64,000 nt of DNA from Gracilariopsis chorda (Eukaryota; Rhodophyta; Florideophyceae; Gracilariales; Gracilariaceae). Shown here one piece after another: positions 21,793-48,021 of the stretch. Position numbers and translations under genes: made by a program. Positions within the stretch are counted from its first letter, which is position 1. The number at the start of each line of letters is the position of its first letter. The notes beneath the pieces are model-generated. The model searched no databases. It was not told the DNA's origin and saw nothing but the letters and a program-made list of their open reading frames with translations. Location: NCBI GenBank assembly GCA_003194525.1, contig NBIV01000053.1, positions 62,001 to 126,000 on the forward strand, read 5' to 3'.

Positions 21793-23231
21793 CTAGTGGA
21801 TGTGTCCGAGAGACTTTGACATAATTCGAAGTGCTTTGTCTTGCACGTCTTGGGCTATGGAAGTTGAGGGTGCCACAGCTGGTTCTGAGGATGTTGAAGG
21901 TGGGTGACAGTCTTTCTGAGACACTTCCTGGGATAAATGTGGGCTTGTCCTCGCTCGCTTTCTCGTGCACTCCAAGGAGCTTTTCTTTCTCCGTTGTGCT
22001 CTGTGGCGTCCATTGTTTGGCGGACGGATCCCTGATGAACTGAAATCTTTTGTAGAAGACGATGGATGCAGTAAAGTGACAGTGTTCTCTGTTTCTTCCG
22101 CGTGTTCTGTTAATGAAGCCAGCCTTGTTTTAAAGGTACCTCTAGCTTCGAAGTGTGTCGCTTTTCCTTGCTGAATGTCCGCGATGGCATCCCTTAAAAG
22201 ACATAGAACTCCACTCACCGCAACACGTCCAATTCCAGTAGCTTGTCGATGTAAAGCATCGTAGAGGTTTTTTCCTTCCATGTACGTATTGTACCCATCT
22301 ACTTCCGAGTCTTCTCTACTGGTTCTAAGTATATCTGAGTCAATGGGGATAAACTCTTTCTCCGTCGACTCATCAAAACGGCGTAGTCGGTAATCCATCT
22401 CCTCGTTGTTGAAGTATCGGGTCTCTGACCTCAGTTTCGCCAAGTATGGGACTGTCATAGCAGAAGTATCTTTTCTCCAGTATGTAGAGAAAAGCGCTTC
22501 AAGAGGTATGAAGTATCCTAGTATGTTTCGTAGTTCAGGGAAACGCAGACGTTCTTCCTGATAAACCACAGCACATCGAACCATGTGACGACAAGCAAAA
22601 CCAACGGACCAGGGCTGCCCACAGGAACAGACACCAATAAACTCTGCCTTAACGTCATCCCCCGACCCCGTATACCTTTTTGAGAATTGCACAACAGTCT
22701 CCTGTGATGAGCGCTCTTCATCCACCGACGCATTCCGGCTCTGACTCAGATGGCTTCCCCATTTCAACTTAAAGCGAGCTACAGGTCCCATTGCTGGGGT
22801 TGAACTACTTTCCAGGTTTCTGATTGCTTCCGGCCACGCTTCCTGTGAATAATCCACAACCTCTGTGCTGGAAAGAAGGTAGTTCTTCGAGGGCTTAAAG
22901 CTCAAATCTACGAAGTGCGCCAAGGCGTAGTTCGTGTACTCAGCCACCAGGCTGTCTACAACTTCTACAGGTAGAAAGTGCTCAAGCTCTCTTGTCTTCC
23001 GATATCTCCCACTTTGAGAAGATAAGGTTCTTACAAGCTCCAAGTTCCGGGTATCAGCCCGTTCTTGGGATATACGCCGAACCTCCAAAGGAACCTTGCA
23101 CAAGGGAATCTTCTTCGATATAATGATCTTCTTGTATGCAGAGTTAGAAGATTCGGTGTAGCCAGTTCCTTGGAACATGTAACGGGTAGGTATAGCCGCG
23201 TTTCGGAAGCAAGACACCAGCATATGCGGCT
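21793..23231 (-). pseudogene. MULE transposase, C-terminal part with SWIM finger (severed)
   Basis: The frame carries the end of a MULE transposase. At the start is a YTESSNSAYKK segment, matching the conserved T-x-x-x-E-S-x-N-x-x-x-K block that follows the catalytic core. A SWIM zinc finger lies at C199, C201, C211, H213 of the 476-residue open frame (CSCGQPWSVGFACRH). The C-terminal tail is basic and low-complexity. SWIM fingers are standard in MULE and FAR1-like transposases. It lies exactly at the left TIR of the Plavaka-like insert. Its N-terminal partner is on the other side of the insert at 36408-35089 on the same strand, so this is half of a split gene rather than a separate gene. The ATG at 23223 is fortuitous. 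Confidence 0.85.
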
Positions 23232-23257
23232 TATCGTCGGTGTTTTCGGAATGCTAG
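23232..23257 (+). repeat. Left TIR of the Plavaka-like element
   Basis: 26 bp, starting TATCGTCGGTGTTTTCGGAA. Inverted copy at 35063-35088. A 21-base piece of it (with one change) recurs at 63341-63361. Confidence 0.85.
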
Positions 23258-23462
23258 TTTGACAATCAAAAGGGAAAGAATTGAAATGGACGGATATCGA
23301 CTCTTAAAACCCACTTTTGAATGAATCAATTTCCATCAAAATATTTTCACACATTCAACACTGCTAGTTTTTTGAAAGTATAAACTAGTAAAGCACTTCA
23401 CATTTCCAAGTTATTTCGGACCAAAAACCGAGTCCGGACTCCGCGAAGTGGAGTCCAGACTC
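23253..23462 (+). repeat. Left subterminal CTAG repeats and hairpin
   Basis: GCTAGTTT at 23253, CTGCTAGTTT at 23361, AAACTAGTA near 23382, and a hairpin with 13-base arms at 23430-23442 and 23450-23462 (GAGTCCGGACTCC / GGAGTCCAGACTC, one mismatch). Subterminal repeats of this sort are transposase-binding sites in CACTA elements. Confidence 0.6.
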
Positions 23463-23801
23463 CACTACTACATACCTTCACATGTGAACGTGAGATTGAA
23501 AATCTGACCGGACCACCGGAACTGCCCCTTCAAATAGAAGGATAGGATGCTCAGATAAATACATATATAGGAAATACATTAGAGTTTACAAAACATGATA
23601 GCCCTCACTATCCTTCACTCGTTGTCAGTGTCTGCGGCCTTGCATAGCATGCACCAGTCCACGAGCCAGCGCAAAACGCTCGGCATCACCTGCTCCACTT
23701 CATCCCCGTGCGCCATAATAATTACGCTCCCGCATTTCGCTCTCCAACAACCCCTTTGCTCCCCTTTCTCCTTCCAATCCTTCAACTTTCCTTCCCGCAC
23801 C

Positions 23802-26800
23802 ATGTTCCCCTGTTGCTACCCTCGCTGCTCCTTCCACGGCCGCACCACATACTCTCTTCAGAGTCACCAACGCAGGTGCCCCCATCGCCTCACCGCCAAC
23901 AAGCGTTCCTCCTCCACAGCCACCGCTCCAGTTCAGTTCCCTCCCAGGACCAAGAAGCGAAAATCCGTTCCCAACCTCTCCATCAATTCTCCTCCCCTTC
24001 CCTCTCACCGTCCTTCCGACAACGTCCCCCTCGCCGATGATGATCCATATGAACTTCAACAGGCTTCCCTCTCTCTTCAAACCCAAGACGCTTACCATAT
24101 CGCAAGTCACGCCATCGGCTCCGTCTCCTCCTCAAACCCCCTTCTCCCGCCCCCTTCTCGTTCCCCTTCCCCTCTTGCCGACAACCCTCATCTCGAACAA
24201 CTCGTCCTCTACATCTCCTTCATCGCATCCTCCGTCAGCACCCGCAAAGCAGACGAGCTCATCTCCATCCTCAACCATCCAGACTTCTCCAAGTCCTCCT
24301 TCCAGACCTCCATCTCCTCCGCCAGGCAGTGCCTCGCACTGCAAGAGGACCTCTTCAAGCAACGCATCAGCTCCAACGGCTTCATCCCTTCCACCATCAC
24401 AGACAAGCGCAACACCTTCTCCGCAACCCTCTTCCAGAAACGTGCCATCGACGTCCTCAAGCAACAACTCGCACTCGCACACCTCAACAACACCTTCTTC
24501 CAGCCGGTATCTCAATCTTCCTCATCTTCTTCGTCTTCTGGTCACCCGGCTTTCGCACATCCCATGGCTGCAGCCCTCGGAAAGAAAGTCGTCCCAGCCA
24601 TCAAACAGGAAATTATGCAGTCCCCCGTCGATGACATCGTCTGGCACACCCCCCAGGAAACCGGTATCGAATCATTCATCGGCCTCGTCCAGCTCTACTC
24701 GGACAAGTCCGCAACCTCCCTGAAAAGCTCCTCCGTCAATTCCTACCCCCTCCACGTCACGTTTCTCAACTTCTCCGATGCCCTCCGCCGAAAGTGTATA
24801 TCCGAAAATCTCACACTCCTCGGATACCTTCCAACCTCCTTCTCCCCGTTTACCGCCTTCGACGACGGCGGCGACTACGTCCCGAAATCATCCTCCAACA
24901 TCCCACGCGAGACCAAAATGAACCTCATTCAGCGCGCCATCTCTACCATCCTCAACCCACTCCTCACCTCTGCGCTCCCAGGATTCTCCTTCCGTGACGC
25001 TCACGGTGTCCTCCGCCACTGCCACCCCATCCTCGCCAGCTATTGCGCAGACATCCCCGAAGCAAAGGACATCCTCGCCATCTCCCACGGAACACGGCCG
25101 CAGCACCCTTGCCCGAGATGCACCGTCCCTCGGGAACACCTCTTCCTCAATACAGATCCCATCCCCTTCCGCACACAACTCCAAACTCGAACCAATCGCA
25201 GACAGCACACCTGCCTTCTCCGCGAATCCGAGGAAGCGCAACTCGCCCGGAAACCAAAAGTGGCACGCACCAAAAAAGAAGAGGCAGCAACAGCACTTCA
25301 TTCTCTCTCCCTCGCAAAGTACACTTCTCTCTTCGAATCATACCCCATCTTCAACATCACTCCGCTTCTCTCTTCTTACAACATCTTCGCCTTCGAGCCA
25401 CTGCATAACTTCCACCTCGGCGTCTCTAAACTCATCAAAGCCACCGCAATCGAACGTCTCCGATCCGATTCCCTCTTCTCCATTGTCGGTCCCAGCAAAT
25501 CCAAGAGATCCTTCCAATCCATCCGCACCTCCATCCTCAAACACTCCAACTCCATTCTTGCGGCCATCCAAAAAGATTCCCCTGCAACTGGACTCCACAT
25601 AGACTTCTCCACCTCCGACAACGCTCAAGCTCTTAACGGCTTCTTCACCACAGAAGGACTCCGTGGAATGCTCGAAGCAAAAGATTACCGCGCACTCGAC
25701 ATGGTATTCCCCTTCATCGGAGCATTCTTCGACAGATGCTGCAACGAAATCGACTCCTCCCCAATCACTTCCGTCTTCACCAAGTACACAGATCTCGTTC
25801 TCTACGCCATGCGATACAACTCCACTTCCGAATGGACCGAAGACTCTCTCAAATCACTCGAACGACAGATCAGATCCTTCAAACTCACAGCCACCACCGT
25901 CCTCGGACCCTACCACTCTTCGCACCTCGGTACCCTCAAGTTCCATCTCCTCGATCACATCGTCGACGACATACGTAGATACGGAGGTCTGCACTTCAAC
26001 GACGCAGGCATATTCGAACATGCCCACGTCCTCTTCAAATCTCACTACTCCAAGACATCCAAACGAAGAGCCACTGCCCACAACGAAACCATCCGCGCTA
26101 TAGACCGCTCCACCGCCATCAAGGATTGGAATCCACTCTCAGCAGAACCCTCTATTGCTTCTCATCCTCCATCAAAAACTCCAACCGAACCCCGAAAACC
26201 ATGCTTTGTACGCGACGGAAAACAAATCTCATTCTACGACATCTTCACTGCTGCAAAGTACCTCGGATCCAATCCAAACGCTTCTCCAAAACTTCTTCAA
26301 GAACTCTTCTCCGCAGACACTCTCTCCATCATCTCACAACTCGGTCACACGGCTCTCCATTCGTTTATCTCTCTCTCAATCGAATACCTCAACCTCGACC
26401 TCTCCACGAAACAACTACGTCAAACTCGTCTCACCATCCTCAACTCAGGATACGTCGTCGGCGGCTACACTCCCACCCTCGACAATTACAACCCCGAACA
26501 AAACGAACTCATGCTTCAAGAACCTCCTGTCTCTCTCCTTCAGCGCATCTTCGCCGTTCAATCCTTCGGACCCTCGAAGTCTGCAAAATTCTCCCACATC
26601 CTCGTGGCGGGCACAAACTCCTCCTCTTCATCCAAACCCATCGTATGGGTCTCCAAGCTCATCGCCCTCGTTCGCTTCACAGTACCTTCTGCTTCCTCAA
26701 CTTTCCCCACCTCGACCACAGAGGAATTTTCATTTGTACAATTTCTCGAAGTCGTACCACCTCGCGACCAAGTAGATATAACCCTCAACTGTGTATCCCT

Positions 26801-27065
26801 TCGATGGTCAACCGATGACGAACACAACCACACCACAAATCCCGTTCCCATCTCCAAACCATCCACAGACGATAACGTTTCCCCTTGGTTCGGACTCGTT
26901 CCTTCAACTTCCATTCTCGGTGCAGTGCACGTCGTGCGTCAAAACTACCCCGCCCCACCCTTCCCGTCTCGACTTCACTGGCGTTTCCATCGTTTCTACA
27001 TTAACCGCTTCTATCGCGACACCGCTTCAAAGCCCTACAACCCCCATTCCACTACCCCTCCATAA
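23802..27065 (+). CDS. Plavaka-like (CMC) transposase
   Basis: The open frame runs 23595-27065 (1,156 residues). I prefer the ATG at 23802 because the sequence after it starts with a zinc-finger block (MFPCCYPRCSFHGRTTYSLQ, then HQRRC), the usual N-terminus of Plavaka transposases, while the preceding 69 residues have no family resemblance. Central motifs: FRDAHGVLRHCHPILASYCA then HPCPRC, the conserved knuckle region; EPLHNFHLGVSKLI, the D/E-x-x-H...LGV-x-K block; and FNDAGIFEHAHVLFKSHY near residue 850, matching the conserved C-terminal Glu-containing segment. CMC transposases cut and paste DNA with an RNase H-type DDE fold; the exact triad was not proven. The coding strand is strongly pyrimidine-rich. 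The frame is intact. Confidence 0.8.
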   Translation: MFPCCYPRCSFHGRTTYSLQSHQRRCPHRLTANKRSSSTATAPVQFPPRTKKRKSVPNLSINSPPLPSHRPSDNVPLADDDPYELQQASLSLQTQDAYHIASHAIGSVSSSNPLLPPPSRSPSPLADNPHLEQLVLYISFIASSVSTRKADELISILNHPDFSKSSFQTSISSARQCLALQEDLFKQRISSNGFIPSTITDKRNTFSATLFQKRAIDVLKQQLALAHLNNTFFQPVSQSSSSSSSSGHPAFAHPMAAALGKKVVPAIKQEIMQSPVDDIVWHTPQETGIESFIGLVQLYSDKSATSLKSSSVNSYPLHVTFLNFSDALRRKCISENLTLLGYLPTSFSPFTAFDDGGDYVPKSSSNIPRETKMNLIQRAISTILNPLLTSALPGFSFRDAHGVLRHCHPILASYCADIPEAKDILAISHGTRPQHPCPRCTVPREHLFLNTDPIPFRTQLQTRTNRRQHTCLLRESEEAQLARKPKVARTKKEEAATALHSLSLAKYTSLFESYPIFNITPLLSSYNIFAFEPLHNFHLGVSKLIKATAIERLRSDSLFSIVGPSKSKRSFQSIRTSILKHSNSILAAIQKDSPATGLHIDFSTSDNAQALNGFFTTEGLRGMLEAKDYRALDMVFPFIGAFFDRCCNEIDSSPITSVFTKYTDLVLYAMRYNSTSEWTEDSLKSLERQIRSFKLTATTVLGPYHSSHLGTLKFHLLDHIVDDIRRYGGLHFNDAGIFEHAHVLFKSHYSKTSKRRATAHNETIRAIDRSTAIKDWNPLSAEPSIASHPPSKTPTEPRKPCFVRDGKQISFYDIFTAAKYLGSNPNASPKLLQELFSADTLSIISQLGHTALHSFISLSIEYLNLDLSTKQLRQTRLTILNSGYVVGGYTPTLDNYNPEQNELMLQEPPVSLLQRIFAVQSFGPSKSAKFSHILVAGTNSSSSSKPIVWVSKLIALVRFTVPSASSTFPTSTTEEFSFVQFLEVVPPRDQVDITLNCVSLRWSTDDEHNHTTNPVPISKPSTDDNVSPWFGLVPSTSILGAVHVVRQNYPAPPFPSRLHWRFHRFYINRFYRDTASKPYNPHSTTPP

Positions 27066-27129
27066 ACTATCCGTTCCACTTGAACAACTACTCGCCTCCC
27101 TCAACACCCTCCATTTCACCGTAGAGCTC

Positions 27130-29457
27130 TTACCTTGAACCATTCCTCCCATTCCCTCCGTTCTCATTCTGCAACCTCTTCATCCACACATCCTCCGGCC
27201 GACAAGCAGCAACATAACAGTCAAGCACCCCTCCAAGTCGTTTCGTCAGGTGCTCCACGAAGTACTCATCCCTCATTGCCAAGTAGATCTCCCGCTTCGA
27301 AGGTATCCAAAGCGCAACCGTCGCTTTCCTATTCTCATTCCCTGCTATGCGACGCGGATCCCCCTCGTCGAACCCTTCATTCTCCAATTCCTCATGGTGC
27401 CGTTCCCTCACTCTCTCCCATGCCACCCCAATTATGTTCTCCAGAGCAAGCGGGAGATACTCACCAAACAACTTTGAAAACAATAACTGCCGTTTTCCTC
27501 CACGGCCCACATTCGTGTCCAACGCAGTCAAAACACATCCGATCCAAGCATCCAAGCGTGCCAAATGCATCACAGTTCCATCCACATAATCTGTCTTCCC
27601 TTCGCCTCCCGGTACCACCTCATATCCCATAAACTCTGCCAGCACTTCTACCGCAGCTCCGTTCTTAAAGTACATGTCCTCCCCACCAAAGTCCCTTAAC
27701 CTTCGAGCAACTTGAAATCCAGAATATGTAAGATCGTCAATCGCACTCATTCTCCATGCACATAAGATTCGGCTCTTCTCTACCTCCTTTCCCATTAACT
27801 TGCTTCTCGCTTCCTCTAACTGCTTCTTCAATTCCACATCAAGCTCCGTCCCCTCCTGAGGTCTCACACGTCTTGCTATCAAGTCATACCCAAGTAGCGA
27901 AAACAACTTTTCCCGTGCCGCCCGCTTCCGAACCCCAATCACATCGCTCAACGTTTGCTTCATACGCTGCCTCAAACACCTGTCCCGAGCTACGTCCTGC
28001 ATACACTGAATCTTCTTACCCGCTTGTCGAATCGACTCCCATCTATGCCCTTCAATCTCAACACCAATCAAATACTTCAAAAGTTCATTGCTTCCTCCTC
28101 GCAAACTCGGTGTATACGCCCTCATCTCCGATACGATCTCAAAGGGACACCGAGGAACAATTTCGTTCCCTCCCACTACGAATACACTCGACTCCGTCCC
28201 TTTCCCTAAGATCTCACACCGGTTCGTCCAGTTCCTCTCCATTCGATCCGTAGTAAAACAAAGCTCCGACACTTCCAACTTTGCGTAATACAATATCCTA
28301 TCATACACTACCCTAGCAAATCCATAAAAGCTCTCGTCCACATCAACCACATACTTTTTACGCCTCGTCAAATCAGTGTCTCCCCCTTCAGCTCTTCTTC
28401 TCTCCGCACTCCTTACCTTTATCCCTTCCCTCAAACTGTCAATCAGCATGTTCTTCTCGATCATTTCTTCCCTCATCCTCTTCAGTTCCTCCTGTGTCAG
28501 CTTCAAAGATATCTTTAAAGTAGTATGGTCCTCCTTAAGGCTTCCAAGTTCTCCCTTTAGCGAATTCACCTTCTGAACCAATGTAGGTCTAGACAACACA
28601 CCGATCTCATCATCATCAAGGTCCTTCACAACATCGGTACTCACCACTTGCTCATCACGGGGTGACTTATTCACATTCTCTTCCGCCTCCAATCCCATTT
28701 CGAAAGATCGGTCAAATGATACCGAAATTCTTCGCCTTCTCTCCCGCATTCCTTCCGGTGTACGCAGCGCATTGCGTCCGCTTTCTTTCTCTACGTCAGG
28801 GACGATGTCCATATTCCTCGATCGGATGGGAGTGCCGCCATTTCCATCTTGATCTCTCGTGGCCTCATTCTCATGAAATACATTAGAACACCGCCCGTGC
28901 TTCTCACGTGCACTTCCTTCGGTACACCTCCCCTTCGTAATCTCATCTTCGCGCTCTCCTTCGCTCTCAGGCAAATAAACATTCACCTCTTCTTGCGCGC
29001 GCTCTTGATTACCACTGGGAGCTCCACGTCGCTTGGAGTTACGACACTCCTGCACCTCCTTTCCACACGACAAGACCTTCCTCACTCCTGAGCCTTCAGC
29101 GCGTGCCTGCTCGGAAACACCATCTCCCTCCACTCCGCTCCTGTCGTGTTTCGCAGCTTCCTCGTTGGATCTCCGCTTCATCCGTTGCACGCGCCTTGGT
29201 TCCTTGCCAGACCGCGCCTCTCGGGAGAGCTCCGGCCTCAAATTATCGTTTATCGTGCGATCCGATGCGCCACTTGGGTTTGAACCCCCTGTCCCTCCTT
29301 TTCTCCCGGACAAACCGCTCCTCGGAACGCGGGTAGCTCCTACCTGAGGTCCTTTCGTGCCACTCGGACTTCGTTCCTCCACACCCCTCCGTCGCGTTTT
29401 CGGTGCATTCGTCGCGCCTTCCCTCCCGGCGCCTCTCTTCTTCCCCTTCACTGGCAT
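27130..29457 (-). CDS. Basic, coiled-coil accessory protein of the Plavaka-like element
   Basis: A 775-residue frame from ATG 29457 (an ATG at 29538 would add 27). The N-terminus is lysine/arginine-rich (MPVKGKKRGAGREG, KTRRRG) and looks like nuclear localisation signals in a disordered region to about residue 280. A coiled coil follows (VNSLKGELGSLKEDHTTLKI, then KLTQEELKRMREEMIEKNML). The C-terminal 380 residues are globular, with regular hydrophobic spacing and no domain I recognise. It converges with the transposase gene, whose stop is 66 bp away. Intact length despite no known family suggests selection. It may bind DNA or the transposase; that is a guess. Confidence 0.7.
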   Translation of the reverse strand: MPVKGKKRGAGREGATNAPKTRRRGVEERSPSGTKGPQVGATRVPRSGLSGRKGGTGGSNPSGASDRTINDNLRPELSREARSGKEPRRVQRMKRRSNEEAAKHDRSGVEGDGVSEQARAEGSGVRKVLSCGKEVQECRNSKRRGAPSGNQERAQEEVNVYLPESEGEREDEITKGRCTEGSAREKHGRCSNVFHENEATRDQDGNGGTPIRSRNMDIVPDVEKESGRNALRTPEGMRERRRRISVSFDRSFEMGLEAEENVNKSPRDEQVVSTDVVKDLDDDEIGVLSRPTLVQKVNSLKGELGSLKEDHTTLKISLKLTQEELKRMREEMIEKNMLIDSLREGIKVRSAERRRAEGGDTDLTRRKKYVVDVDESFYGFARVVYDRILYYAKLEVSELCFTTDRMERNWTNRCEILGKGTESSVFVVGGNEIVPRCPFEIVSEMRAYTPSLRGGSNELLKYLIGVEIEGHRWESIRQAGKKIQCMQDVARDRCLRQRMKQTLSDVIGVRKRAAREKLFSLLGYDLIARRVRPQEGTELDVELKKQLEEARSKLMGKEVEKSRILCAWRMSAIDDLTYSGFQVARRLRDFGGEDMYFKNGAAVEVLAEFMGYEVVPGGEGKTDYVDGTVMHLARLDAWIGCVLTALDTNVGRGGKRQLLFSKLFGEYLPLALENIIGVAWERVRERHHEELENEGFDEGDPRRIAGNENRKATVALWIPSKREIYLAMRDEYFVEHLTKRLGGVLDCYVAACRPEDVWMKRLQNENGGNGRNGSR

Positions 29458-29717
29458 AGCTGTTAGATAATGTCGCGTGCTTGTGGCGGGGAAACACCGC
29501 GGCCCTAAAACGACGTGTGCCGAGCAGGAAGAACTCACGAAAAGCCACGAAGGGTTTTTGGCATTAGTTCCACCTCTCTGAAAACATGAAAAAAATTACC
29601 CTGATGTTCCTACCACTCGTTAACCGAATGGGTCCCCTGACATATCGCCCCCCCATCAAGGATTTTTTCACTAAAGTAGCTATGTGGTTTACAAACTCGG
29701 TTTCTTTAGTATATAAG

Positions 29718-32700
29718 CTAGTCAATTACAATAGCTCCATCATCTATACGCAGATGCGTCTGAGTATGCCAATCATAGACATTTCCGTATTCACTAAAGA
29801 TTTCGTCCCCTTCCTCTATTTCAACAAGGGCTTCCAGCTTGATAAGCCTGTAGTCTGTTAGTTTCCTACAGTTCAGCCCTAGGCCAGGTGAACGTTTCAT
29901 CCGCACGTTAGCCTCACGCTTTTTCACAAGGCCATCTACCGTAGCATCTAAGTCCTTATCGCCTTCGACATACTTAGGGTCGTTAATATACCCTGCAACA
30001 CAAAACGGAGCTGGAACAACCCAAAGAATCGGGTTGGTTTGTTTTCCATGGTTCAGTGTTCTCCGATGAGGTAGTGCAGAGAACTGATGCCCATGAACAT
30101 CCACCGCCACCGCATATTTTCGAAAGCGATCCTTCGTCACACCCATAACTCCGTCCCCGTAGGTCTTGTGCACTTCTTTACGGTTCGTCAGATCATGATA
30201 CACGAGTGTCCCATAGAAGTAGCACACTACCTCCCCTACAGCAATACGACGAGTTGCAAACACTCCAACACCAGCGTTATCGTGGCGAATAGTAGACTTG
30301 CTGATTCGTAGTCCATAATGCACAGCTTCCATTGCCAGCAGCGAGTTCATGTTCTCCAGATTCATCCTACCCTGCAGCACGCTAGGCCATTGATCGAAGG
30401 TCCTGCTCTTACCCAATTTGGCTACCTCTTCACTTCTCCACAGCGTCGACAGGAACTGGACGACGTGTGGGGGAAGCATCTGGTACGGAGAAAAGCCATT
30501 GACTGCCTTCCATGACAAGGTATGCCTCAATCTGCCCATTGGAAATGCGATGACAACAGTATGGGCCATCTTCCTGAGCTCTTGGTTCTTCTCAAGATTG
30601 GTGTTTCCCTCCCGGATTATAGAAGCAAAACGAACAATAGCAGCATGCTTTGCGTGTTCAAAGCAAGCTTTATCGTCTTCACATCCTACAAATATCCGGT
30701 GCTTCGGCAGTTCCATGCATGCCATCGCTGTAGAGAACGTCCCCGCAAAGAGGTCAACCACTAGGTCTCCTGGCTGACTAAACCTGCAAATGAGTTCCTT
30801 CAGCAATGCCCTACACTTCTGTTCCGGTCGCACCTTTTTCCTCGTAGTGATTCTCTCCGAGTTTGTCACATTCCATAGCAGAGTTTCGCCATAAGACATA
30901 GGCGGCACCTGGTCTATGATTGCGTGATATGCCGGGTAGCGTGAAGGGATAAAATTAAAGTTCTCATAGTTCACCATTCTGTGCTGTTGGGAATACGGGA
31001 CCCCAGAGCGCACTGCATGTACGGCATACTCCGACGTCTGGTACAGCCGACAGCTCCGCCTTCCCGGATTACCCATCGAGTTCCCCATGGATCGTACGAA
31101 CTGGAGGGGTTGTTCGTCCACGACAAAAGAAAAACGAGTTGTGCCAGAGTCATCTGTGTACGTAACACTCCGCAGCACCTCCCGCCACTTCTGTATCTGA
31201 TCCCACGAGCAGAACAATATAACATGCCCACCGGGACGTAGCAACTTTGAAATTCTTTTCCCTGCCCGGGCCATGGTCTTCTCGGTGAGAACATCATGAC
31301 CACTGTTCTCCCGATTACGCTCCGCACGAGTCCCATATGGGGGATCCGAAAGCACGAACTGTACCCTTCCTTCAATGGATAGTTCGCTGTCCCCGGACTT
31401 GTTGTCGTCGACGTCGACAAGGTCTTGGAAACTGCAGTTGTGAAGACGGAAGCTGCGGGACATCTGCCTCTCACAGTACTCGTACGACATCAACTGATCT
31501 AAAGTCTTCGGATACGGTGGAGGTTGAACACCAGTCTCCTTCACGCTGTACGTCAGTCTCTGAGACAATGTCGTTGTCTGCAGACCAGTAGTAGCTCTTG
31601 GAGCAGCCACACTCTCCACCACCTCTTCGACCTCATTATCAGCGATACCTTCCTTTTCATGAATACCTTCGTGCCTCCCAGCAGCAGGGTTGGTCCGTAC
31701 CGGCACCATCATGATATCGTCATCTTCCCCAGGCTCCTGCTTAACAGCTTGATGAACGGCGAAATTGCTTCCATGCGATTTAGTTAGCTTAAGAGGCTTG
31801 ATGGCATCCTGAACTGTAGTGACAAGAGACTCACTAAAGTCCTCAAATCGTGTAGGGAAATGCCTTGTGTTCGTGATATTGAATCTCTTTAGAGCATCCC
31901 ATTTACTGGGAGCAGAGATTTCGAACAGTTTCTCTTGTACTACCACACTGGAAAGGTCCCCAAGGTATTCCTTTGCACATAAACGAAGTCCTGTATCAAC
32001 TGCGCCAGGTAGGCTCCAAGCCCATTCCACAACGTTCTCCCTGATGGTAGTGGCGTTCTTCTCCTTCACAAATTGTTTCGAGCAGTCTTTGTGTTGAAAA
32101 CCCAGGGAAGGTTCTCCAATATCTTTGAATACCATGTTACGGTAGTCCAGTCGAATGTACGGCAATATCATAACCTCGACGTTGGGAAAACCAAGAAATT
32201 GTGCAAAGCAATCCCATGCCCTGGTAACCAGCTGGACGCCATAGCCCACTCTCTGACATTGCAGCTTGTCAGACAGGCTCACCTTCGAGAACTTCGTACT
32301 AGACATTCCGAATTTCCTTTTTCTACCACTCGCTTTCTTATGCAACGAGATGTTCTGCACCATAGACAAGGCTATGAAGAATTCGAAATCCGTGCAAGGT
32401 TTGGTGTGGAAAGGAGAAGAGTTATTGATGACGCCTAGCACTCGAGACTTGAAGAACACACTTAGCAATACATTGGGTGGTATACCCTTATGCACCTCGC
32501 TTCCACAATAAAGCTCCCAAAAGTCCCTCACGCGTCGGTCCCCATCACCATCCTTCAGGTCCACTACCCTTGCCATCAAGTACATCTGACGTGCCGGACC
32601 CCTAGAAGCGACTTTCCGTAGCTCGGAATCGGAGTACGAGGTGTAATCCGGTCCGATGAGAGTATAGAACATTTGCTTCACAGACTCATGAACGTTTCGG

Positions 32701-32900
32701 GTTTCCACCGCGAACGTCAAGAAATCGCTGTGCTTCAGACCTCTCGGCTCGTCAAAGTTTTGCCTCGTCGCCACGTAGGCGTCGCGAATACCCAGGTAAG
32801 CAGCAAGAAGCTGCTCCCCAGTTCCATGCATCTTACCGCTTCCCGAAGCACTCCCGGTGGCGGCCGACCTCACATTAACTTCTTCGACGGAGGAGCCCAT
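29718..32900 (-). CDS. DNA N6-A/N4-C methyltransferase fused to a SET domain
   Basis: 1,060 residues from ATG 32900. Residues 1-480 have no recognised domain and include a low-complexity acidic linker at about 385-440. A beta-class amino-methyltransferase follows: motif IV as FVLSDPPYG (DPPY 519-522), then LLRPGGHVILFCSW, a variable target-recognition stretch, KVRPEQKCRALLKELI (motif X-like, before motif I), and motif I as PGDLVVDLFAGTFST (716-724), followed by GCEDD. IV-before-I is the beta-class order (N6_N4_Mtase family). A SET domain occupies about 876-1043: NAGVGVFATRRIAVGEVVCY, then GYINDPKY with NVRMK in place of the NHSC-x-PN motif, then ALVEIEEGDEIFSEYGNVYD with the catalytic Tyr1038. 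The first domain would methylate DNA amino groups and the SET domain protein lysines, probably histones. I know of no described protein with this combination. Confidence 0.85.
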   Translation of the reverse strand: MGSSVEEVNVRSAATGSASGSGKMHGTGEQLLAAYLGIRDAYVATRQNFDEPRGLKHSDFLTFAVETRNVHESVKQMFYTLIGPDYTSYSDSELRKVASRGPARQMYLMARVVDLKDGDGDRRVRDFWELYCGSEVHKGIPPNVLLSVFFKSRVLGVINNSSPFHTKPCTDFEFFIALSMVQNISLHKKASGRKRKFGMSSTKFSKVSLSDKLQCQRVGYGVQLVTRAWDCFAQFLGFPNVEVMILPYIRLDYRNMVFKDIGEPSLGFQHKDCSKQFVKEKNATTIRENVVEWAWSLPGAVDTGLRLCAKEYLGDLSSVVVQEKLFEISAPSKWDALKRFNITNTRHFPTRFEDFSESLVTTVQDAIKPLKLTKSHGSNFAVHQAVKQEPGEDDDIMMVPVRTNPAAGRHEGIHEKEGIADNEVEEVVESVAAPRATTGLQTTTLSQRLTYSVKETGVQPPPYPKTLDQLMSYEYCERQMSRSFRLHNCSFQDLVDVDDNKSGDSELSIEGRVQFVLSDPPYGTRAERNRENSGHDVLTEKTMARAGKRISKLLRPGGHVILFCSWDQIQKWREVLRSVTYTDDSGTTRFSFVVDEQPLQFVRSMGNSMGNPGRRSCRLYQTSEYAVHAVRSGVPYSQQHRMVNYENFNFIPSRYPAYHAIIDQVPPMSYGETLLWNVTNSERITTRKKVRPEQKCRALLKELICRFSQPGDLVVDLFAGTFSTAMACMELPKHRIFVGCEDDKACFEHAKHAAIVRFASIIREGNTNLEKNQELRKMAHTVVIAFPMGRLRHTLSWKAVNGFSPYQMLPPHVVQFLSTLWRSEEVAKLGKSRTFDQWPSVLQGRMNLENMNSLLAMEAVHYGLRISKSTIRHDNAGVGVFATRRIAVGEVVCYFYGTLVYHDLTNRKEVHKTYGDGVMGVTKDRFRKYAVAVDVHGHQFSALPHRRTLNHGKQTNPILWVVPAPFCVAGYINDPKYVEGDKDLDATVDGLVKKREANVRMKRSPGLGLNCRKLTDYRLIKLEALVEIEEGDEIFSEYGNVYDWHTQTHLRIDDGAIVID

Positions 32901-33225
32901 GATATACCTCGATGGCTATGCAGCTAGTTTGAAAATGAACGGACGTGGGGGAGGAACGCGATACTCCACACGTTCGGAGCGGTCGCGGAGCAAAGAGAAA
33001 GTGGTTACCGTGTTTTTCGGTGGTCGTCAATGACCAAAAGTTGCAATCACGCGGATGAAGATTGGCGGGTTTTCGGAATCGTTGTAATGCTTGTGAGCCG
33101 GCGTGGTTGCACTGCGATGATAGGAGAGAATATCTGCGCATCGACACCGATTGCATGAAGGAGCGCGGCGGTCAGAAGATCATTGCGAGAAACTATGCTG
33201 ATGTTGAACTGCTAGGGGGGGTGGA

Positions 33226-33299
33226 GGTCCGTGGACCGGAGTGTCGTGGCGCTTCATCAGGCGCCTGATGAAGCGCCACGACACTCCGGTCCACGGACC
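33226..33299. repeat. 74-bp perfect palindrome
   Basis: Two 37-base arms meet without a loop at 33262/33263 (centre CATCAGGC/GCCTGATG). It lies between the divergent methyltransferase-SET gene and the 252-residue coiled-coil gene. A direct, shortened copy of most of it is at 33462-33520. Confidence 0.9.
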
Positions 33300-33302
33300 T
33301 TC

Positions 33303-33520
33303 GCCACCCAGCTGTTCAGAAAATCAAAAAATTAGTGTAAAATGAACCATGCATCTTCCGCCCATGACCTACTAGGTCGTACCGCAGATGTCCGTTCATT
33401 CCAGACACTAATTTTAAACTAATTTTTTGATTTTCGGAACTGCTGGCCGCCACGTGGTGGAGGTCCGTGGACCGGAGTGTCGTGGCGCTTCATCAGGCGC
33501 CTGATGAAGCGCCACGACAC
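33303..33520. repeat. Inverted-repeat cluster next to the palindrome
   Basis: AAAATCAAAAAATTAGTGT at about 33318 is mirrored by an ACACTAATTTTA/TAATTTTTTGATTTT stretch at about 33405-33435, and CAGCTGTTC by GAACTGCTGG beyond it, with roughly 95 bases between. The second palindrome copy at 33462-33520 follows; its right arm is cut short at ACGACACTTCG. The whole looks like a composite foldback sequence or a small inserted hairpin element. Confidence 0.6.
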
Positions 33521-33888
33521 TTCGTGCTGCTTCTTTTGGGTATGGCTGTGGATATGGACTTGGAGTACCATTTTCGAAGGTATGTTGCGAATCTAGGAGA
33601 GCACTGTAGGCCTGTTGGTTCTCGTTTTGAACCATTTCTTTAGACACGTTCGTAGTTCTACCTGTACATACCTAAGTTAGTGTGATAGAGTTGTAAACTG
33701 AAGGAAGTGTTAAACTAATGTCGTTCTAAATTTTTCGTTTCAGATTATTGGTGGGACACGACTCGGTGGGAAATGGCGCGAAAACGGGCGAGTGAAAAAA
33801 TGCGGTTGGATAAGTACCTGGGGAGTGCTCGCTTGGTGGTTGGGTTAGGAACGGGAGCGCCGTTGTGGTGGGGCGTGTAGTAGCCATG

Positions 33889-34644
33889 TCTAGCGAAGAC
33901 GTGAATGATGAGGAGCTACTGGCGTTGTTGGATAAAGCGGAGAAGAGGGAGGTCCCCGAGACGCCTCCAAGGACGAAGAAGGAGGAGGAAGGGAAGGGTG
34001 ATGGTGAAGAGGGCAAGGGAAGGAACGTTGTTGGGTTCGGGGAGCTTGGGGTTGGGACGATGATGGGAGGGGATGGGGGGGAGGGAAGTGAGGGCGAGGG
34101 AAGTCGAGGAGGACGGGGAGGAGGAGGAGGTGGGGCGGGGCGAATGAGTCGGTTTTACCGCGATGTGAAGAAACTGGTGAGGAGCGTGGGCGGAGGGCTT
34201 AAGGAGCGTTTGGATGAGTGTATCGAGGAGGTTGTGGTGGAGATGGGGGGGATGGTGCTGAGTTCTTCAGAGGAAGGGGTGCCTATGGGTGCTGTGGCTG
34301 AGCTGCGTAGGAGGGCAAGGGAGGCTGGGGTGTGGGCGGAAATGCATGTCGATGGGGTTGTGGCGTGTGTGGGTGAGGAGCTGAGGAGACTGTGGAAGGA
34401 GAACGAGGAGATGCGTAGACGGGTTTTGGTGTTGGAGAAGCAACTTTTACTGGTTGGTAGGGCTGTGCATCTAATCGAGGAAATGCAGAAGAAGGTGTGT
34501 GATGCGGAAGGGAGAGCTGTTGTCGGGGAAGGCACTCCTGTTACTCCCGGTCGAGGGGCTGTAAGGAAGAGGTTGGAGGAGAAGGACGACGAAGGAATAG
34601 AAGGTGAGAGTCGGTTGAAGAGGAGGCGTGGAATGAGAGGATAA
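33889..34644 (+). CDS. Coiled-coil protein of the Plavaka-like element
   Basis: 252 residues from ATG 33889 (an ATG at 33865 would add eight). Starts MSSEDVNDEELLALLDKAEKRE, followed by an acidic/basic region, a glycine-arginine linker (SRGGRGGGGGGAG), a helical domain (RFYRDVKKLVRSVGGGLKER), a leucine-heptad coiled coil (EELRRLWKENEEMRRRVLVL) and a basic C-terminus (RLKRRRGMRG) that could be a nuclear localisation signal. No family recognised. Intact, and divergent from the methyltransferase-SET gene across about 1 kb that contains the palindromes, so the two may share a regulatory region. The coding strand is strongly G-rich. Confidence 0.65.
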   Translation, partial: SSEDVNDEELLALLDKAEKREVPETPPRTKKEEEGKGDGEEGKGRNVVGFGELGVGTMMGGDGGEGSEGEGSRGGRGGGGGGAGRMSRFYRDVKKLVRSVGGGLKERLDECIEEVVVEMGGMVLSSSEEGVPMGAVAELRRRAREAGVWAEMHVDGVVACVGEELRRLWKENEEMRRRVLVLEKQLLLVGRAVHLIEEMQKKVCDAEGRAVVGEGTPVTPGRGAVRKRLEEKDDEGIEGESRLKRRRGMRG

Positions 34645-34817
34645 GGAGAAGAAGGATGGTAAGGATGGTAAGGGAGGTTTTATGTTTGGTGTTCAAGAGT
34701 GTGGGTGCCACCCAGTGAGGCTGAGAGAACAGTTGGGCTCCAAACTTTGACAATTTGAAGTTTGAAATCCACGAGATGGAAATATGTAAGTTAATTTGGG
34801 TTGCATGGGGGTGGGGC

Positions 34818-35066
34818 CGCTGGCCGCTACGCGGCCAGCGCCATTTCGAGCCCTCTAACTAGCGTTTAGTGAGCAAAGAACTTGCTCTAAACTTGAAACT
34901 AGCGAAGTGCGGTACTAGGGACGGATGACAATAGAAAATATGAAAGAGTGATTTCCGAAAAAATTTTTTTTTTGCTTGCCAACCACCACGAACTAGCAGA
35001 ATCTAGCGTTTTCGTAGTTTTTTGAGTGATTGCCTAACAAACTTGCGATCTAGCACCCTTATCTAG
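34818..35066 (+). repeat. Right subterminal CTAG repeats and hairpin
   Basis: A perfect hairpin with 10-base arms and a 3-base loop at 34818-34840 (CGCTGGCCGC / GCGGCCAGCG), then CTAG-centred motifs at about 34857, 34897, 34991, 35001, 35048 and 35063, most reading AACTAGC or TCTAGC. They mirror the left-end motifs in the opposite orientation. Confidence 0.65.
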
Positions 35067-35088
35067 CATTCCGAGAACACCGACGATA
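35063..35088 (-). repeat. Right TIR of the Plavaka-like element
   Basis: Inverted copy of 23232-23257 with one base different. It overlaps the last codons of the upstream open frame, so the apparent transposase end YRRCSRNAR is encoded by the TIR. Confidence 0.85.
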
Positions 35089-36408
35089 GTGGTACAAGTA
35101 CTTATACCACACAGGGAGACGATCGTCAAAAGCATCAAAGTACTTGGATTCTAGCATTCTTCTCCTTTCGAAAAACGTTTCCGACGTATATGACTTTCTG
35201 AGGTTGAACAGGTCTTTCTTCATATCGTGCATCCACTCCATCTTACCAATCTTTCTACACCAATTGGCCACATTCTTCTTCTGATTCTCGTTCAGATGCC
35301 ATTCGTCGAGGCTTATATAGGACGAATTGAACACCTTCTCAGCTGCATTTATACACGCAGTGTTCTGGTCCATCACTACCATCGCCGGTGAGACGGCGAC
35401 TATAGACTTGAAGTAGGACAGAATTCGTACGAAGTCCTCTTCTGTTTCGGAGCACATATACCCCATGAAAAATGTCAACACATGACCATCATTGGCTCTT
35501 CCATTAATGGTGACCAGAGGGAAACCGTATCTATTGGCTATGGCTTTACAATCAATAGATACCCCCGGAACAATGCCGAACTTCTGGTAGTCTTCCATCC
35601 ACTCTCGAAACGACCAACAAGCGTACTTCATCCTACCCGAATCATCCGCAGCGAAGAATCCCTTATTCCCTGCATCCTCCTGGCTCAACGAAAAGAGCAG
35701 ATCACACAACCTTACACATTCCAAATCGCGGGGATTGCTTGTGGACGAAGCATACCTCAACTTCTTCCTCGCCGATACCGGATTTATCTTCTGATTTTAC
35801 TTGTCTTCCAGGTATCGTATGGTATCTCTAAAGCTCATATGCAAATCGTTCGTCATATGTATCGCTTCAGAACGCATTTGCGGCTTGAGATGTCTAATAC
35901 CAAAGCTCCCAGAGGGACCATGTCCATGTTTACAACCATTTAAATTAGCCACGTAGATCATTCCACCATCTTCCTCCTGCCCAGAATCCTCCGTCTTAAT
36001 CGTTATCGAGAAGAGGCATCGCGTCATCTTGTTATTGTATTGATCGCACTTCAAGATTCCCTTCTTCAGCACCCTTCTATTCCCACGTTCAGCACCACGA
36101 CTCTTGGGAGACTTTGCCTTATCCGGAGATCGCTTTCGTTCTCCAAAGTATATAGAAGTCCTTACGAATAAGCTGTACCCGAAGCAGTCCGCGATAAATT
36201 GAACTTCCTTCAGAACCGTGACACCAGGAGCATTGAGAGGAAGGGTTTCCAGATAGGCTAAAACTGCTGCTTTAAAACACTCCTCAATTCTCTCATTCGG
36301 TATCGTGTTCTGTACGGATTCCGTGCCCAGTTCTTCATCACCATCTTCTGTCCAGTACTTTTCGTCTTTCTCTCCAAGGCCATCCTTCTCCTTTGGTTCT
36401 GATTCTTC
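35089..36408 (-). pseudogene. MULE transposase, N-terminal and catalytic part (severed)
   Basis: One frame, broken only by TAA at 35797-35799. Before the stop: a zinc-finger-like module (ILKCDQYNNKMTRC ... NLNGCKHGH), typical of MULE/FAR1 N-termini. After it: the MULE catalytic domain. First Asp in VSIDCKAIANRYGFPL, then ETEEDFVRILSYFKSI, the second Asp in AMVVMDQNTACINAAEKVF, and LDEWHLNENQKKN (the C/x-x-H block). The third acidic residue is probably in SETFFERRRMLE. The domain is cut at 35089 by the Plavaka-like TIR; its continuation is at 23231-21793. The frame joins without a break to the Ulp1-like frame upstream except for the TAA at 36409-36411. Confidence 0.85.
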
Positions 36409-39400
36409 TTAATTTAGGATGCCACCATCAGAGTCTTCGAAGAAGCATGAAGGAACCTCTTCTTCGTCATCTAAGAATCGATCAATCAGCAGCGCCTCCT
36501 CTTCTTCAACGGATTGCTCATCTGAAACCTGCTGCGCATATGCAACGTTTGCGTTGAGAGTTTCACTCTCCTCACTCATTTTTGAGCCTAATTCGGCGCC
36601 CACAGCGCTGTGGCGTGCACGCTCGCATTTCGCGTCCACTGTTTGTGTTGAGGAGTTCGGAGAAGCAGCAGGGGGGTCAGCTTCAAAAGAGCTAATGCCA
36701 AAATCGCCTCTTACGCCACTCTCGACGTTAAACGCATTATCCAGAAGTCCATCCGAGCATTTTACATCGTTTACGCCACCTTTCCCGATGCCTTCCCTTG
36801 AGATAGGTCCTTGCTGCGGCCTCTTCGGTAGATTGGAGAACGGCCTACCTCCTTCCTGTGAAACCGAGGAGTGTTGCTTCCAAAGCTCGGGTTTGGGTTC
36901 GTGAACTGCTCTTTGCGAAGCACGGCCATCAAAAACACCTCCCCTCTCAGGGCATTTCGTGCTATGCAACACGCAATAGAAGGGATAAAATTCCTCAGCC
37001 CCACTGGAGTCGCCATACGCCATATCGTCTTCACTTCCTGTTTCTGCATTGCTTTGAGATAAAGAACCATGTGAATGCTCTAGGAGGTAGCATGATGAGC
37101 TGTTGTAGAACTCGGCTCCCTGGAAGGGGGGTATGGTTCGAAATAGGCATGACAGACGTACATATTCTCCATTTTTCCGTATGTGCTCTTCCCATTCTTG
37201 TAGACGGGAGGCTAAAGAGGAGCGAATGCCCTCAAACCTCCTTCTTACAACATCATCGGGGCATGGAAGTTGTTGGGGGGTGTGCGTGTGTATCAGGTCC
37301 TGTTCAATTACCCAACATCTCTCCATGGGATAGAACTTTGCTCGAATGTTGGAGCGGCACTGCGAATTGTGCCACAGACACCGCAATTTTCCGGTGAGCA
37401 GCGCAGACGACCTCGACTTCCTCGTCTGCAACACTGAGAAGTATTGTACACCATAAAGGTAGCCAAAGTTCTTGGCGATGCAGGCAACCAGTGCAGGGAG
37501 GTCAAAGACCTCCTTTAAACCTTCCAGAGCTGAGACAAGCCTCTCGTTTGACATCGCAAGTTCTGTCTTACATTCACCACCGTCCTCAAGTTTCACATCA
37601 ACCCATAAACGCCTTCCATTGTTTTCAAATGTCTCTTGGACGTCTGCCTGATCCTCAGTGCATGACCCGGTCTTCGTAGTGCGTCCTTCACACATAGGCA
37701 TTGATGGTAGCTCCATGTGCGGCTTCTCCTGTATCTGAGCGTCAGATGGTAGCTCCATGTGCGGCTTCTCCTGTATCTGAGCGTCAGAACAGGCTGCCAG
37801 CTCTTCATTGAGCTCTTGAGCTTGACCACCATTCTCAGAAGCCTGCTTCTTCTCTTCAATATGTTTTTCAGTTTCTGCGTTCAGCTCGGAAGGCGCCGCG
37901 GTATCCTTCGCTCCTTCTTCAGCTTCAACTTCTACCTGTGCCTGTGTCCGACTGATCGTCTTTGCTGGTGAATGTCCATCAATTTCCATGTCTACTTCAC
38001 TACCTTCTCCAGTCTGAATCATTTCCTGCTCCTCTTCTACACCTGATGCTCCACTTACTTCAGAACCTCTTCCAGTTTTCTCACCTAGCGCTTTGTGCAC
38101 CATCTCGGAGCGCTGTGATACACATATCTCAATCAATGTGTTCACAATGTCCGCTACAACCGGAGCAGAATCAGAAAACTGCACTCCTCGCTTCATGCGA
38201 ATCTTCAGGGGTAGACACATCCCACTGCTCTGAACAGAACTTTGGTTCAGCTCATGAACACGCTTTGTTCGCTGGCTTTTCCGTATAGCACGCGCCTCAG
38301 AGTCGCACGTACCCAACGGCATTGGCTGAAGATTCGTCTCTCTACAGGGGTCGTTGAAAACATCCACGACCTTTCCTTCTCCTGCTTTTCGTTCTCCCAG
38401 AACTGTATTCACATCCGTTCCCTCTTCCTTTCCAGCTTCTTCCTTTCCAGTCTGCATCCCAATGCTCCGCTCCACGCTTCGTTTCGTACGCTGCCGTTTT
38501 TTACCTTTCTTCCTCATGCGAAGGAGTTCTAAACGATGCTCTGACCGGAGCCGTACGACCATTGTTTCAGTAACAATGTCGGTTTGAAAGAACTCCTTCG
38601 CCATGAGTATGTGTAGAATCCGGATTCTAATGGACATCCATCGAATCCTCTCAGTCAATGCTCGGCTGTACCCAGAGGCGTAGGTTCGCTTCGGGATACA
38701 GCCGTGGTCCGCACTGAACATGGTGAAAAGGGAAACAACATAGCAACCACAGCTGTGAGAGTCCTTTTGTCGCTTAAACCCTTTTACCTGTAGCATGTAG
38801 TTCCGCTCCGATATCACTGCACGTAGCGCTTCATCTCCTGTGAGGCAAAAGGGAAACAAGAAAGAGAACAGTTTCATAATCCTTAGATCAACAGACATTC
38901 CAAGACTGTCTCCAAACCAAACCGTCCATCGTTGCGTTCCTCGCGCCGCATTGACAATTTTCTTCCCTACCAAAACACCCCAATGGCTGTTAGACATGTT
39001 CAAAGGGACTAAAACCGTGTTTATCTCTGTATCACCATTACCTTTAAAGGTAAACCACTTCTTGAACACTTCCAAATCCTCTTCCGGTATGTTTCCCTTC
39101 TTTCCCTTGAATGACTTCGATAGCCTTGTCAGCATCACTCCAATAGAACATGAGGCAAAAGCCACACCAACAGAAGGTACCATGTTCAAAACAGCTGTTG
39201 AGATCAAATCGCTACACATTTCCGAGTCAGGTTTTGAACTGTGTACCAAAGAAACCGGTGATGTTTCTTTGCCTTCTGCGATCAAGATTCTGGCTACATG
39301 GTCCTTCACAACCGCAAAAAGGACTTCGGAACTCGCAGAGCCATCACTGATGCGCATTTGCGTACGCTTTTCAAGATTCTCCCAGAACGACGTAAAGGTT

Positions 39401-39459
39401 TCATAAAGTTCATGTTCTGGGAGAATATCTACGTAGTCAGACGCTTTGTTTTGCTCCAT
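36409..39459 (-). CDS. Ulp1-type cysteine protease with zinc finger, MULE-encoded
   Basis: 1,016 residues from ATG 39459. The Ulp1/C48 catalytic set is complete: H159 (NMSNSHWGVLVG), D184 (WFGDSLG), Q231 (FKRQKDS) and C237 (SHSCGCYVVS). A long charged linker (about 300-630) includes a duplicated 14-residue unit. A second zinc-finger-like module follows at C694, C701, H724, H726 (RCLWHNSQC ... LIHTHT), of the WRKY-GCM1/FLYWCH type common in MULE proteins. The tail is acidic. Ulp1 proteases remove SUMO or related modifiers. Ulp1-like domains are known in plant Kaonashi MULEs. The stop TAA at 36409-36411 is followed in the same frame by the transposase, so a fused polyprotein or readthrough product is possible. 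Confidence 0.85.
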   Translation of the reverse strand: MEQNKASDYVDILPEHELYETFTSFWENLEKRTQMRISDGSASSEVLFAVVKDHVARILIAEGKETSPVSLVHSSKPDSEMCSDLISTAVLNMVPSVGVAFASCSIGVMLTRLSKSFKGKKGNIPEEDLEVFKKWFTFKGNGDTEINTVLVPLNMSNSHWGVLVGKKIVNAARGTQRWTVWFGDSLGMSVDLRIMKLFSFLFPFCLTGDEALRAVISERNYMLQVKGFKRQKDSHSCGCYVVSLFTMFSADHGCIPKRTYASGYSRALTERIRWMSIRIRILHILMAKEFFQTDIVTETMVVRLRSEHRLELLRMRKKGKKRQRTKRSVERSIGMQTGKEEAGKEEGTDVNTVLGERKAGEGKVVDVFNDPCRETNLQPMPLGTCDSEARAIRKSQRTKRVHELNQSSVQSSGMCLPLKIRMKRGVQFSDSAPVVADIVNTLIEICVSQRSEMVHKALGEKTGRGSEVSGASGVEEEQEMIQTGEGSEVDMEIDGHSPAKTISRTQAQVEVEAEEGAKDTAAPSELNAETEKHIEEKKQASENGGQAQELNEELAACSDAQIQEKPHMELPSDAQIQEKPHMELPSMPMCEGRTTKTGSCTEDQADVQETFENNGRRLWVDVKLEDGGECKTELAMSNERLVSALEGLKEVFDLPALVACIAKNFGYLYGVQYFSVLQTRKSRSSALLTGKLRCLWHNSQCRSNIRAKFYPMERCWVIEQDLIHTHTPQQLPCPDDVVRRRFEGIRSSLASRLQEWEEHIRKNGEYVRLSCLFRTIPPFQGAEFYNSSSCYLLEHSHGSLSQSNAETGSEDDMAYGDSSGAEEFYPFYCVLHSTKCPERGGVFDGRASQRAVHEPKPELWKQHSSVSQEGGRPFSNLPKRPQQGPISREGIGKGGVNDVKCSDGLLDNAFNVESGVRGDFGISSFEADPPAASPNSSTQTVDAKCERARHSAVGAELGSKMSEESETLNANVAYAQQVSDEQSVEEEEALLIDRFLDDEEEVPSCFFEDSDGGILN
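37703..37786. repeat. 42-bp tandem duplication in the Ulp1-like gene
   Basis: Two exact 42-base units (37703-37744, 37745-37786) encode a repeated SDAQIQEKPHMELP segment in the linker. The frame is kept. Confidence 0.9.
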
Positions 39460-39639
39460 TGCTCAAAGCAATAGAACAGTACACGAGAGCGGTCCGTGAA
39501 GGAGATTGGGACGTAGAGAGAGTCAGCAGTCTTTGAACGGGTCGTCGAAGATGTGAAGGAGGACGTAGTACCTGACGTATCTGTCATTCCCACACATTTT
39601 GACGACGCCGCGCGGTAACCTCGACTGCATCTACATCTC

Positions 39640-47975: not shown

Positions 47976-48021
47976 GCTCTCCTTGTAACGTCTCGGTACG
48001 ATTTGACGTCTCAAAGCGCTT

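Follow-up and report, generated by a model that had tools for sequence, protein, structure and literature searches.

A Plavaka-type transposon of the red alga Gracilariopsis chorda carries a gene for a fused DNA amino-methyltransferase and SET-fold domain

Introduction

Fungal Plavaka elements and ten other transposon lineages carry TET/JBP genes, which have been read as a means of escape from silencing (Kojima 2025, PMC12730594). The same source names SET genes in the HarbingerS and MuDR elements of Phytophthora, and gives the termini of fungal Plavaka elements as TGT..ACA or CATCA..TGATG, with target duplications of 2–3 bp. Here, we describe a Plavaka-type transposon of the red alga Gracilariopsis chorda in which a beta-class DNA amino-methyltransferase and a SET-fold domain are fused in one protein. 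It lies in a stretch of 64,000 nucleotides (contig NBIV01000053.1, positions 62,001–126,000, assembly GCA_003194525.1), hereafter the window, whose own numbering is used for all coordinates.

DNA amino-methyltransferases have also been described as eukaryotic host genes. The bdelloid rotifer enzyme N4CMT is reported to have no eukaryotic homologs and to carry the motif SPPY, the bacterial N6-adenine enzymes having DPPY (PMC8885841). In Marchantia, the product of the sperm-specific gene MpDN4MT1 is associated with N4-methylcytosine (4mC) in sperm (PMC8566409). The red algal protein is likewise a eukaryotic amino-methyltransferase, whereas the account of MpDN4MT1 in that source names neither a transposon nor a SET domain.

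The Methyltransferase–SET Fusion

The fusion gene occupies positions 29718..32900 on the minus strand and is a single uninterrupted frame of 1060 codons with an ATG start. An initial annotation had proposed a 1,060-residue frame here, and the frame is real; the annotation was silent on the strand, and the plus-strand translation of the interval contains many stops. A hidden Markov model search against Pfam placed both predicted domains above the cut-off. N6_N4_Mtase (PF01555) was matched with 66.8 bits (cut-off 26.7; E = 3.6e-18) at residues 513–751 (30648..31364, minus strand), and SET (PF00856) barely passed, with 23.3 versus 22.4 bits (E = 8.8e-5), at residues 877–1039 (29784..30272, minus strand). 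The N-terminal region (residues 1–374; 31779..32900, minus strand) has no Pfam match and is mostly helical in the predicted model, with low confidence at residues 1–22 and 193–202.

In the methyltransferase domain, DPPY at residues 519–522 is followed by KCRALLKELI and then by motif I, DLFAGTFST, in the order read initially. The PF01555 match, motif IV ahead of motif I and a matching fold are those of the beta class. The nearest solved chains by sequence are DpnA (M1.HpyAVI), M.BceJIV, CcrM, MboIIA and RsrI. The fusion shares domain order, motifs and fold with CcrM, M.BceJIV, MboIIA and M1.HpyAVI, whereas these bacterial enzymes have chains of 230–370 residues without a SET domain and are 19–27% identical to it in fold alignments. 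The domain had first been labeled N6-A/N4-C; its identity as a DNA amino-methyltransferase stands, and the DPP[YF] motif and the nearest folds favor adenine over N4-cytosine, so that N6-methyladenine (6mA) is the likely product, with the caution that specificity cannot be proved from domain structure (PMC8885841).

The three SET motifs noted in the initial annotation (GVGVFATRRI, GYINDPKY and EIFSEYGNVYDW) are all present, and the GxG, two Asn and catalytic Tyr residues of the SET fold were found. The usual core motif of SET domains is NH; here it is ND. We describe this part as a SET-fold domain, whose activity may be lysine methylation. The bdelloid enzyme combines SPPY with a C-terminal chromodomain, and no Chromo domain was matched in the fusion protein at E values up to 1 (Pfam). 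N4CMT is thus a host-encoded N4-cytosine enzyme with a chromodomain reader (PMC8885841), whereas the red algal protein has DPPY, a SET writer fold and a transposon as its carrier.

The Transposon and Its Other Genes

The element spans 11,851 bp (23235..35085) and is nested in a MULE transposon. Inverted repeats were found at 23232–23257 and 35063–35088, enclosing 11.85 kb; the left terminal inverted repeat is CGTCGGTGTTTTCGGAATGCTAG (23235..23257, plus strand) and the right one, on the minus strand, is CGTCGGTGTTCTCGGAATGCTAG (35063..35085). Among 11 other copies fetched from the genome, all share the left end within 7 bases and nine share the right end within 3 bases, the other two (C14 and C281) being cut by contig ends. 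Aligned segments of at least 100 bases are 97.7–100% identical, apart from one repeat-rich stretch of 88–91%.

The window copy is flanked by the target site duplication AT (23233..23234 and 35086..35087), and 2-bp duplications were present in all ten copies with both ends visible, among 12 examined (AC, TA, CT, TA, CC, TA, CT, CG, AA and AT). The insertion interrupts a MULE transposase gene: when the element and one AT are removed, a 716-codon frame is restored, with 236 codons preceding the join and 480 following it. The MULE match (PF10551, 2.9e-9, on 35107–35796) came from the upstream piece alone, the downstream piece giving no match over the cut-off. The ends of the copies, the duplications and the empty site indicate that the element has jumped and that its boundaries are not assembly errors, which bears out the proposal that the fusion is transposon-borne. 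The end pattern has 110 exact matches in the genome; its reversed control has none.

The transposase gene (23595..27065, plus strand; 1156 codons from the first ATG) encodes the Plavaka domain PF18759 at residues 317–610 (2.7e-21; 76.6 bits, cut-off 26.3). CPRC at 506 and HLLDH at 784 are candidates for the C(2)C and H(3–4)H motifs that the CMCT clade has, in this order, between its catalytic acidic residues; five other H(3–4)H strings occur as well. The 2-bp duplication fits the 2–3 bp of Plavaka, and the termini, CGTCGG..CCGACG, match neither the PlavakaA nor the PlavakaB pattern, so the element belongs in neither fungal sub-lineage. The initial annotation had drawn a comparison with KDZ transposons. 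The parallel with enzyme-carrying transposons holds; a KDZ element as the carrier was rejected, the transposase being of the Plavaka type.

As in the fungal Plavaka/KDZ elements with TET/JBP genes, the element carries a transposase together with an enzyme that alters DNA methylation, and the duplications are short (2–3 bp there, 2 bp here). In contrast to those elements, whose enzyme acts on 5-methylcytosine, the red algal enzyme is predicted to deposit a methyl group and is joined to a SET domain; the termini differ, and the hosts are red algae, not fungi. The Phytophthora HarbingerS and MuDR elements are similarly DNA transposons with a SET gene, but they belong to other superfamilies, and the passages on them in PMC12730594 mention no fused DNA methyltransferase.

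A second gene (27130..29538, minus strand; 802 codons, GTG as listed) lies between the transposase and the fusion gene. It contains no known domain, with no match in Pfam, NCBIfam or PHROG, and a single relative, 91% identical, was found in the protein collection among the best 7992 candidates by shared words. In a divergent element, C249, whose methyltransferase is 35% identical to that of the window, a frame 43% identical to the second gene over 485 residues lies between methyltransferase and transposase on the methyltransferase strand. Thus, the three genes have stayed together in these two families, and the second gene is conserved across both. A possible fourth gene (33865..34644, plus strand; 259 codons from GTG) is a mechanical open reading frame without a Pfam match; the stretch is present in all 11 copies fetched. 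Just upstream of the fusion gene, palindromic and inverted repeats occupy 33216..33524, including near-perfect palindromes with arms of 26 and 47 nt; the alignment of other copies is rearranged there.

Relatives of the Fusion Protein

Fusion residues 490–1060, searched against 5.8 billion proteins, gave 29 matches with identity down to 28%, among them proteins of Pyropia vietnamensis and Chondrus crispus (the latter annotated as adenine specific DNA methyltransferase). The family therefore occurs in both Florideophyceae (Chondrus and Gracilariopsis) and Bangiophyceae (Pyropia). The methyltransferase piece alone gave six matches, five of them from G. chorda and none bacterial. In the alignment of the window protein with the 29 matches, DPP is invariant (30/30) and both DPP[YFW] and DPP[YF] are found in 29 members, the exception being P0006 with DPPL. 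At a Pfam E value of 0.001 or less, N6_N4_Mtase was matched in all 30 members and SET in 17, including the window protein. When 14 members with an intact SET part were made into a profile, it matched 48 different solved sequences (E ≤ 0.01), whose names are KMT2, KMT5A/SETD8, EZH1/EZH2, viral SET or PRC2 chimeras.

A prokaryotic or viral origin of the whole fusion was considered and rejected, the matches in a single IMG/VR scan and a single scan of the GTDB species genomes being confined to the methyltransferase part. Both scans used the family alignment and two short peptide patterns. All 12 confirmed IMG/VR matches and all 38 confirmed GTDB matches fell within residues 478–784; both patterns came from the methyltransferase part, and distant fusions could escape them. 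The initial annotation regarded the architecture as undescribed. We found no paper describing it in the literature searched, which left subscription journals mostly uncovered, and an earlier mention of the Chondrus protein is possible; the sequences themselves, that of Chondrus crispus included, are already in databases with both domains precomputed.

Association with Plavaka Transposases across the Genome

The assembly (91.3 Mb, 1081 contigs) contains at least 150 methyltransferase matches (150 scored of 175 candidates) and at least 114 Plavaka matches (123 scored of 133 candidates). A Plavaka match was found within 10 kb of 71 of the 150 methyltransferase matches, against 3.7 expected under random placement. 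All 71 partners are downstream and 70 are convergent. After removal of the 28 best-scoring matches, which mostly represent the subfamily of the window, 49 of 122 still had a Plavaka neighbor, always downstream and convergent in 48; some fragments of that subfamily remain among the 122.

SET matches numbered 85 of 146. A SET match (E ≤ 0.001) lies on the same strand, 0.7–1.0 kb downstream, for 59 of the 150 methyltransferase matches, several copies of the window subfamily being near the threshold (E 8e-4 to 9.9e-4). The 26 SET matches without a methyltransferase so placed presumably include ordinary host SET genes.

Based on 100 of the 110 end-pattern places, an inward-facing end was found within 12 kb of 51/150 methyltransferase matches (39 upstream, 25 downstream, 13 on both sides). 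These make 64 inward-facing ends in all, and an outward-facing end was near only one methyltransferase match. Upstream ends are almost all of the C variant (38, with one A variant), and the 25 downstream ends are of the T variant. Outside the 28 best-scoring matches, 28 of 122 had an inward-facing end and none had both. Genes related to the fusion gene are carried by many elements in this genome.

Selection and Decay among Copies

Four open frames of 1065 codons occur in the genome, including that of the window; another of them, C745, matches fusion residues 13–1060 at 99% and keeps the N-terminal region. The 11 other copies fetched are shortened. Positions 31660–33200, with the first 419 fusion residues, are missing from all 11, 27950–29850, with the greater part of the second gene and the final 52 fusion residues, from eight, and 26100–27350, at the transposase end, from ten. 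These copies were picked by their methyltransferase-domain match, so the presence of that domain in 11/11 proves nothing.

The ratio of nonsynonymous to synonymous divergence (dN/dS) is 0.44–2.64 for near-identical copies compared with the window (6 to 17 changes each) and 0.57–0.80 for six pairs within other subfamilies, and 6 of the 18 frames inspected are interrupted by stops. Between subfamilies, just two comparisons were unsaturated, giving 0.22 (window vs C60) and 0.18 (window vs C336) at a synonymous divergence of about 1.0; C60 and C336 are mutually close, so these values are not independent. As judged from these ratios, the pattern is the usual one for a transposon gene that is needed for spread and decays after insertion.

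A Possible Role in Marking the Element

The stable place of the fusion gene beside the transposase, together with the selection on it, suggests that the protein serves the expression or movement of its own element. The explanation we prefer, tentatively and at somewhat less than even confidence, is that it marks the element against host silencing. The fusion protein would enter chromatin, where its methyltransferase part would methylate adenines in the element's own DNA, possibly in the CTAG-containing subterminal repeats described below. The SET domain would write a matching lysine methyl mark, and degenerate members would only read marks or act as scaffolds. The outcome would be chromatin that resists silencing, with copies kept expressed and mobile. 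As the initial annotation had also suggested, the protein may in this way link DNA methylation with protein methylation.

The fixed convergent partnership with Plavaka transposases and the dN/dS of about 0.2 between subfamilies support this explanation. Two considerations favor escape from silencing: there are hints of silencing in this host, and the enzymes of fungal transposons have been read likewise. In G. chorda, methylation is reported to cover about 8% of the genome, with small RNAs associated with the methylated transposons (PMC8566409).

Several observations weigh against it. Methylation in G. chorda is reported to be equal over transposons, genes and promoters (PMC8566409). Transposons are often silenced by DNA methylation, and its effect here could thus go either way. 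Seven of the 30 family members have lost SET core residues, and lysine methylation thus cannot be essential throughout the family. The shortened copies have nevertheless spread, indicating that the protein is not needed from each copy. The C249 and C12 stretches of the divergent family hold only one GCTAG each; CTAG repeats were not seen there, and neither of these two short stretches revealed the element end. A similar string in both stretches was rejected as the element end, having the wrong orientation and the same flank.

In a bolder version, the fusion would be the first single polypeptide to write both N6-methyladenine and a chromatin-lysine methyl mark, conferring a self-identity unreadable to silencing, and the system would predate the split between Florideophyceae and Bangiophyceae. 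We consider it rather unlikely.

Alternative Explanations

The alternatives overlap with the preferred explanation and with one another, and their probabilities need not total one. The strongest, which we nevertheless find doubtful, is that the protein is a DNA methyltransferase only, its SET part being a structural remnant that binds S-adenosylmethionine, DNA or a partner without methylating lysine. SET core residues are lost in P0018, P0020, P0021, P0023, P0024, P0027 and P0028, all of which still keep DPP and motif I, and an eighth member (P0029) stops short of the SET tyrosine. The residue after N973 is Asp instead of the usual His in 21/30 members, including the window protein, and two others have NE. 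The SET tyrosine region (the last 52 residues) is absent from eight of the 11 other copies. Between the window and C60, dN/dS is higher for SET (0.28, bootstrap 0.17–0.44) than for the methyltransferase (0.16, 0.10–0.24), with overlapping intervals. On the other hand, 0.28 is still low, the SET fold is intact in the predicted model, and N973, N998 and Y1038 are all retained in 22 of 30 members. The intact members plausibly methylate lysine, and the seven degenerate members are unlikely to do so.

The main rival to an anti-silencing role is the control of transposition through methylated ends, which we judge unlikely, slightly more so than the reading just discussed. Adenine methylation of the ends would couple excision to replication or license transposase binding, with SET acting, at the same low probability, as a chromatin tether or on a transposition protein. 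Dam methylation controls some bacterial transposons in this way. The fixed convergent arrangement beside the transposase fits this reading, as does the better conservation of the methyltransferase motif than of SET.

The subterminal regions also fit this rival. The left one (23235..23594, plus strand) has two and the right one (34686..35085, minus strand) six inward-pointing GCTAG repeats. Together, the 360 and 400 bases inside the ends contain ten CTAG sites, eight of them in GCTAG and all eight of these inward. Counted on both strands, CTAG occurs 20 times against 3.8 expected, a count reached in none of 300 simulations, and its density is 8.3 and 17.5 per kb at the two ends versus 1.3 in the interior. 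CTAG is palindromic and includes an adenine. In CACTA elements, subterminal repeats are binding sites of the transposase, and by analogy the repeats here would be such sites.

The spread of copies without a complete fusion gene speaks against control of transposition, although at most it shows action in trans. In addition, a related Plavaka-type end, CGTCTGTGTTCTCGGAATGCTAG, at 63336–64000 has the same GCTAG repeats and runs past the window (contig C53, about 125336–139486). No methyltransferase match was found near it among the 150 scored of 175 candidates. The repeats may therefore belong to, and serve, the transposase alone.

It is improbable that the element restrains itself or attacks rivals, with 6mA and a repressive lysine mark silencing its own or competing copies and limiting copy number. 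There is a precedent in the captured bacterial amino-methyltransferase of bdelloids, which puts 4mC at transposons and for which a partnership with SETDB1 has been proposed (PMC8885841). In fold comparisons, the repressive enzymes EZH2 and SUV4-20 are among the SET matches, but MLL1, MLL3, PRDM9 and SETD7 are equally so, and the fold thus gives no direction of effect. A gene that silences its carrier would also be hard to keep for long, and the family spans both red algal classes.

An artefact or dead cargo, that is, an assembly join (the possibility raised in the initial annotation), bacterial contamination or a functionless passenger, can be dismissed with high confidence: copies do decay individually, but relatives with the same domain order in many contigs and several red algae exclude a join or chance, these and the empty site exclude contamination, and the four open frames and the low dN/dS between subfamilies argue against a passenger.

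Neighboring Elements

The outer MULE transposon, into which the Plavaka-type element inserted, is 19.7 kb long (20172..39879), with perfect inverted ends of 240 nt (20172–20411 and 39640–39879) and an Ulp1 protease gene (PF02902); the identity of its ends suggests a recent jump. About 6 kb beyond the end at 63336, a SET gene (L100) with the usual NHSCDPN and DYG motifs is followed by a convergent Plavaka match; together they may represent another Plavaka element that captured a SET gene independently. A Ty3-like retrotransposon frame (43356–48092, minus strand) encodes reverse transcriptase, RNase H and integrase, with a C-terminal chromodomain match under the Pfam cut-off, and a Pif1-type helicase frame (2610–3806, minus strand; PF05970, 4.8e-26) possibly belongs to a Helitron. 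A tandem-repeat search gave nothing useful and an RNA family search gave no matches.

Implications

Transposons with DNA-methylation enzymes and transposons with SET genes are both known. A DNA methyltransferase and a SET domain combined in one transposon protein would give a mobile element a novel means of acting on both layers of host chromatin. The role of 6mA in eukaryotes is disputed, and the fusion offers a clear place to test it, with a local prediction and a named enzyme. The chromatin biology of red algae is little known, and the number and divergence of these families point to a long-running contest of element against host in this group.

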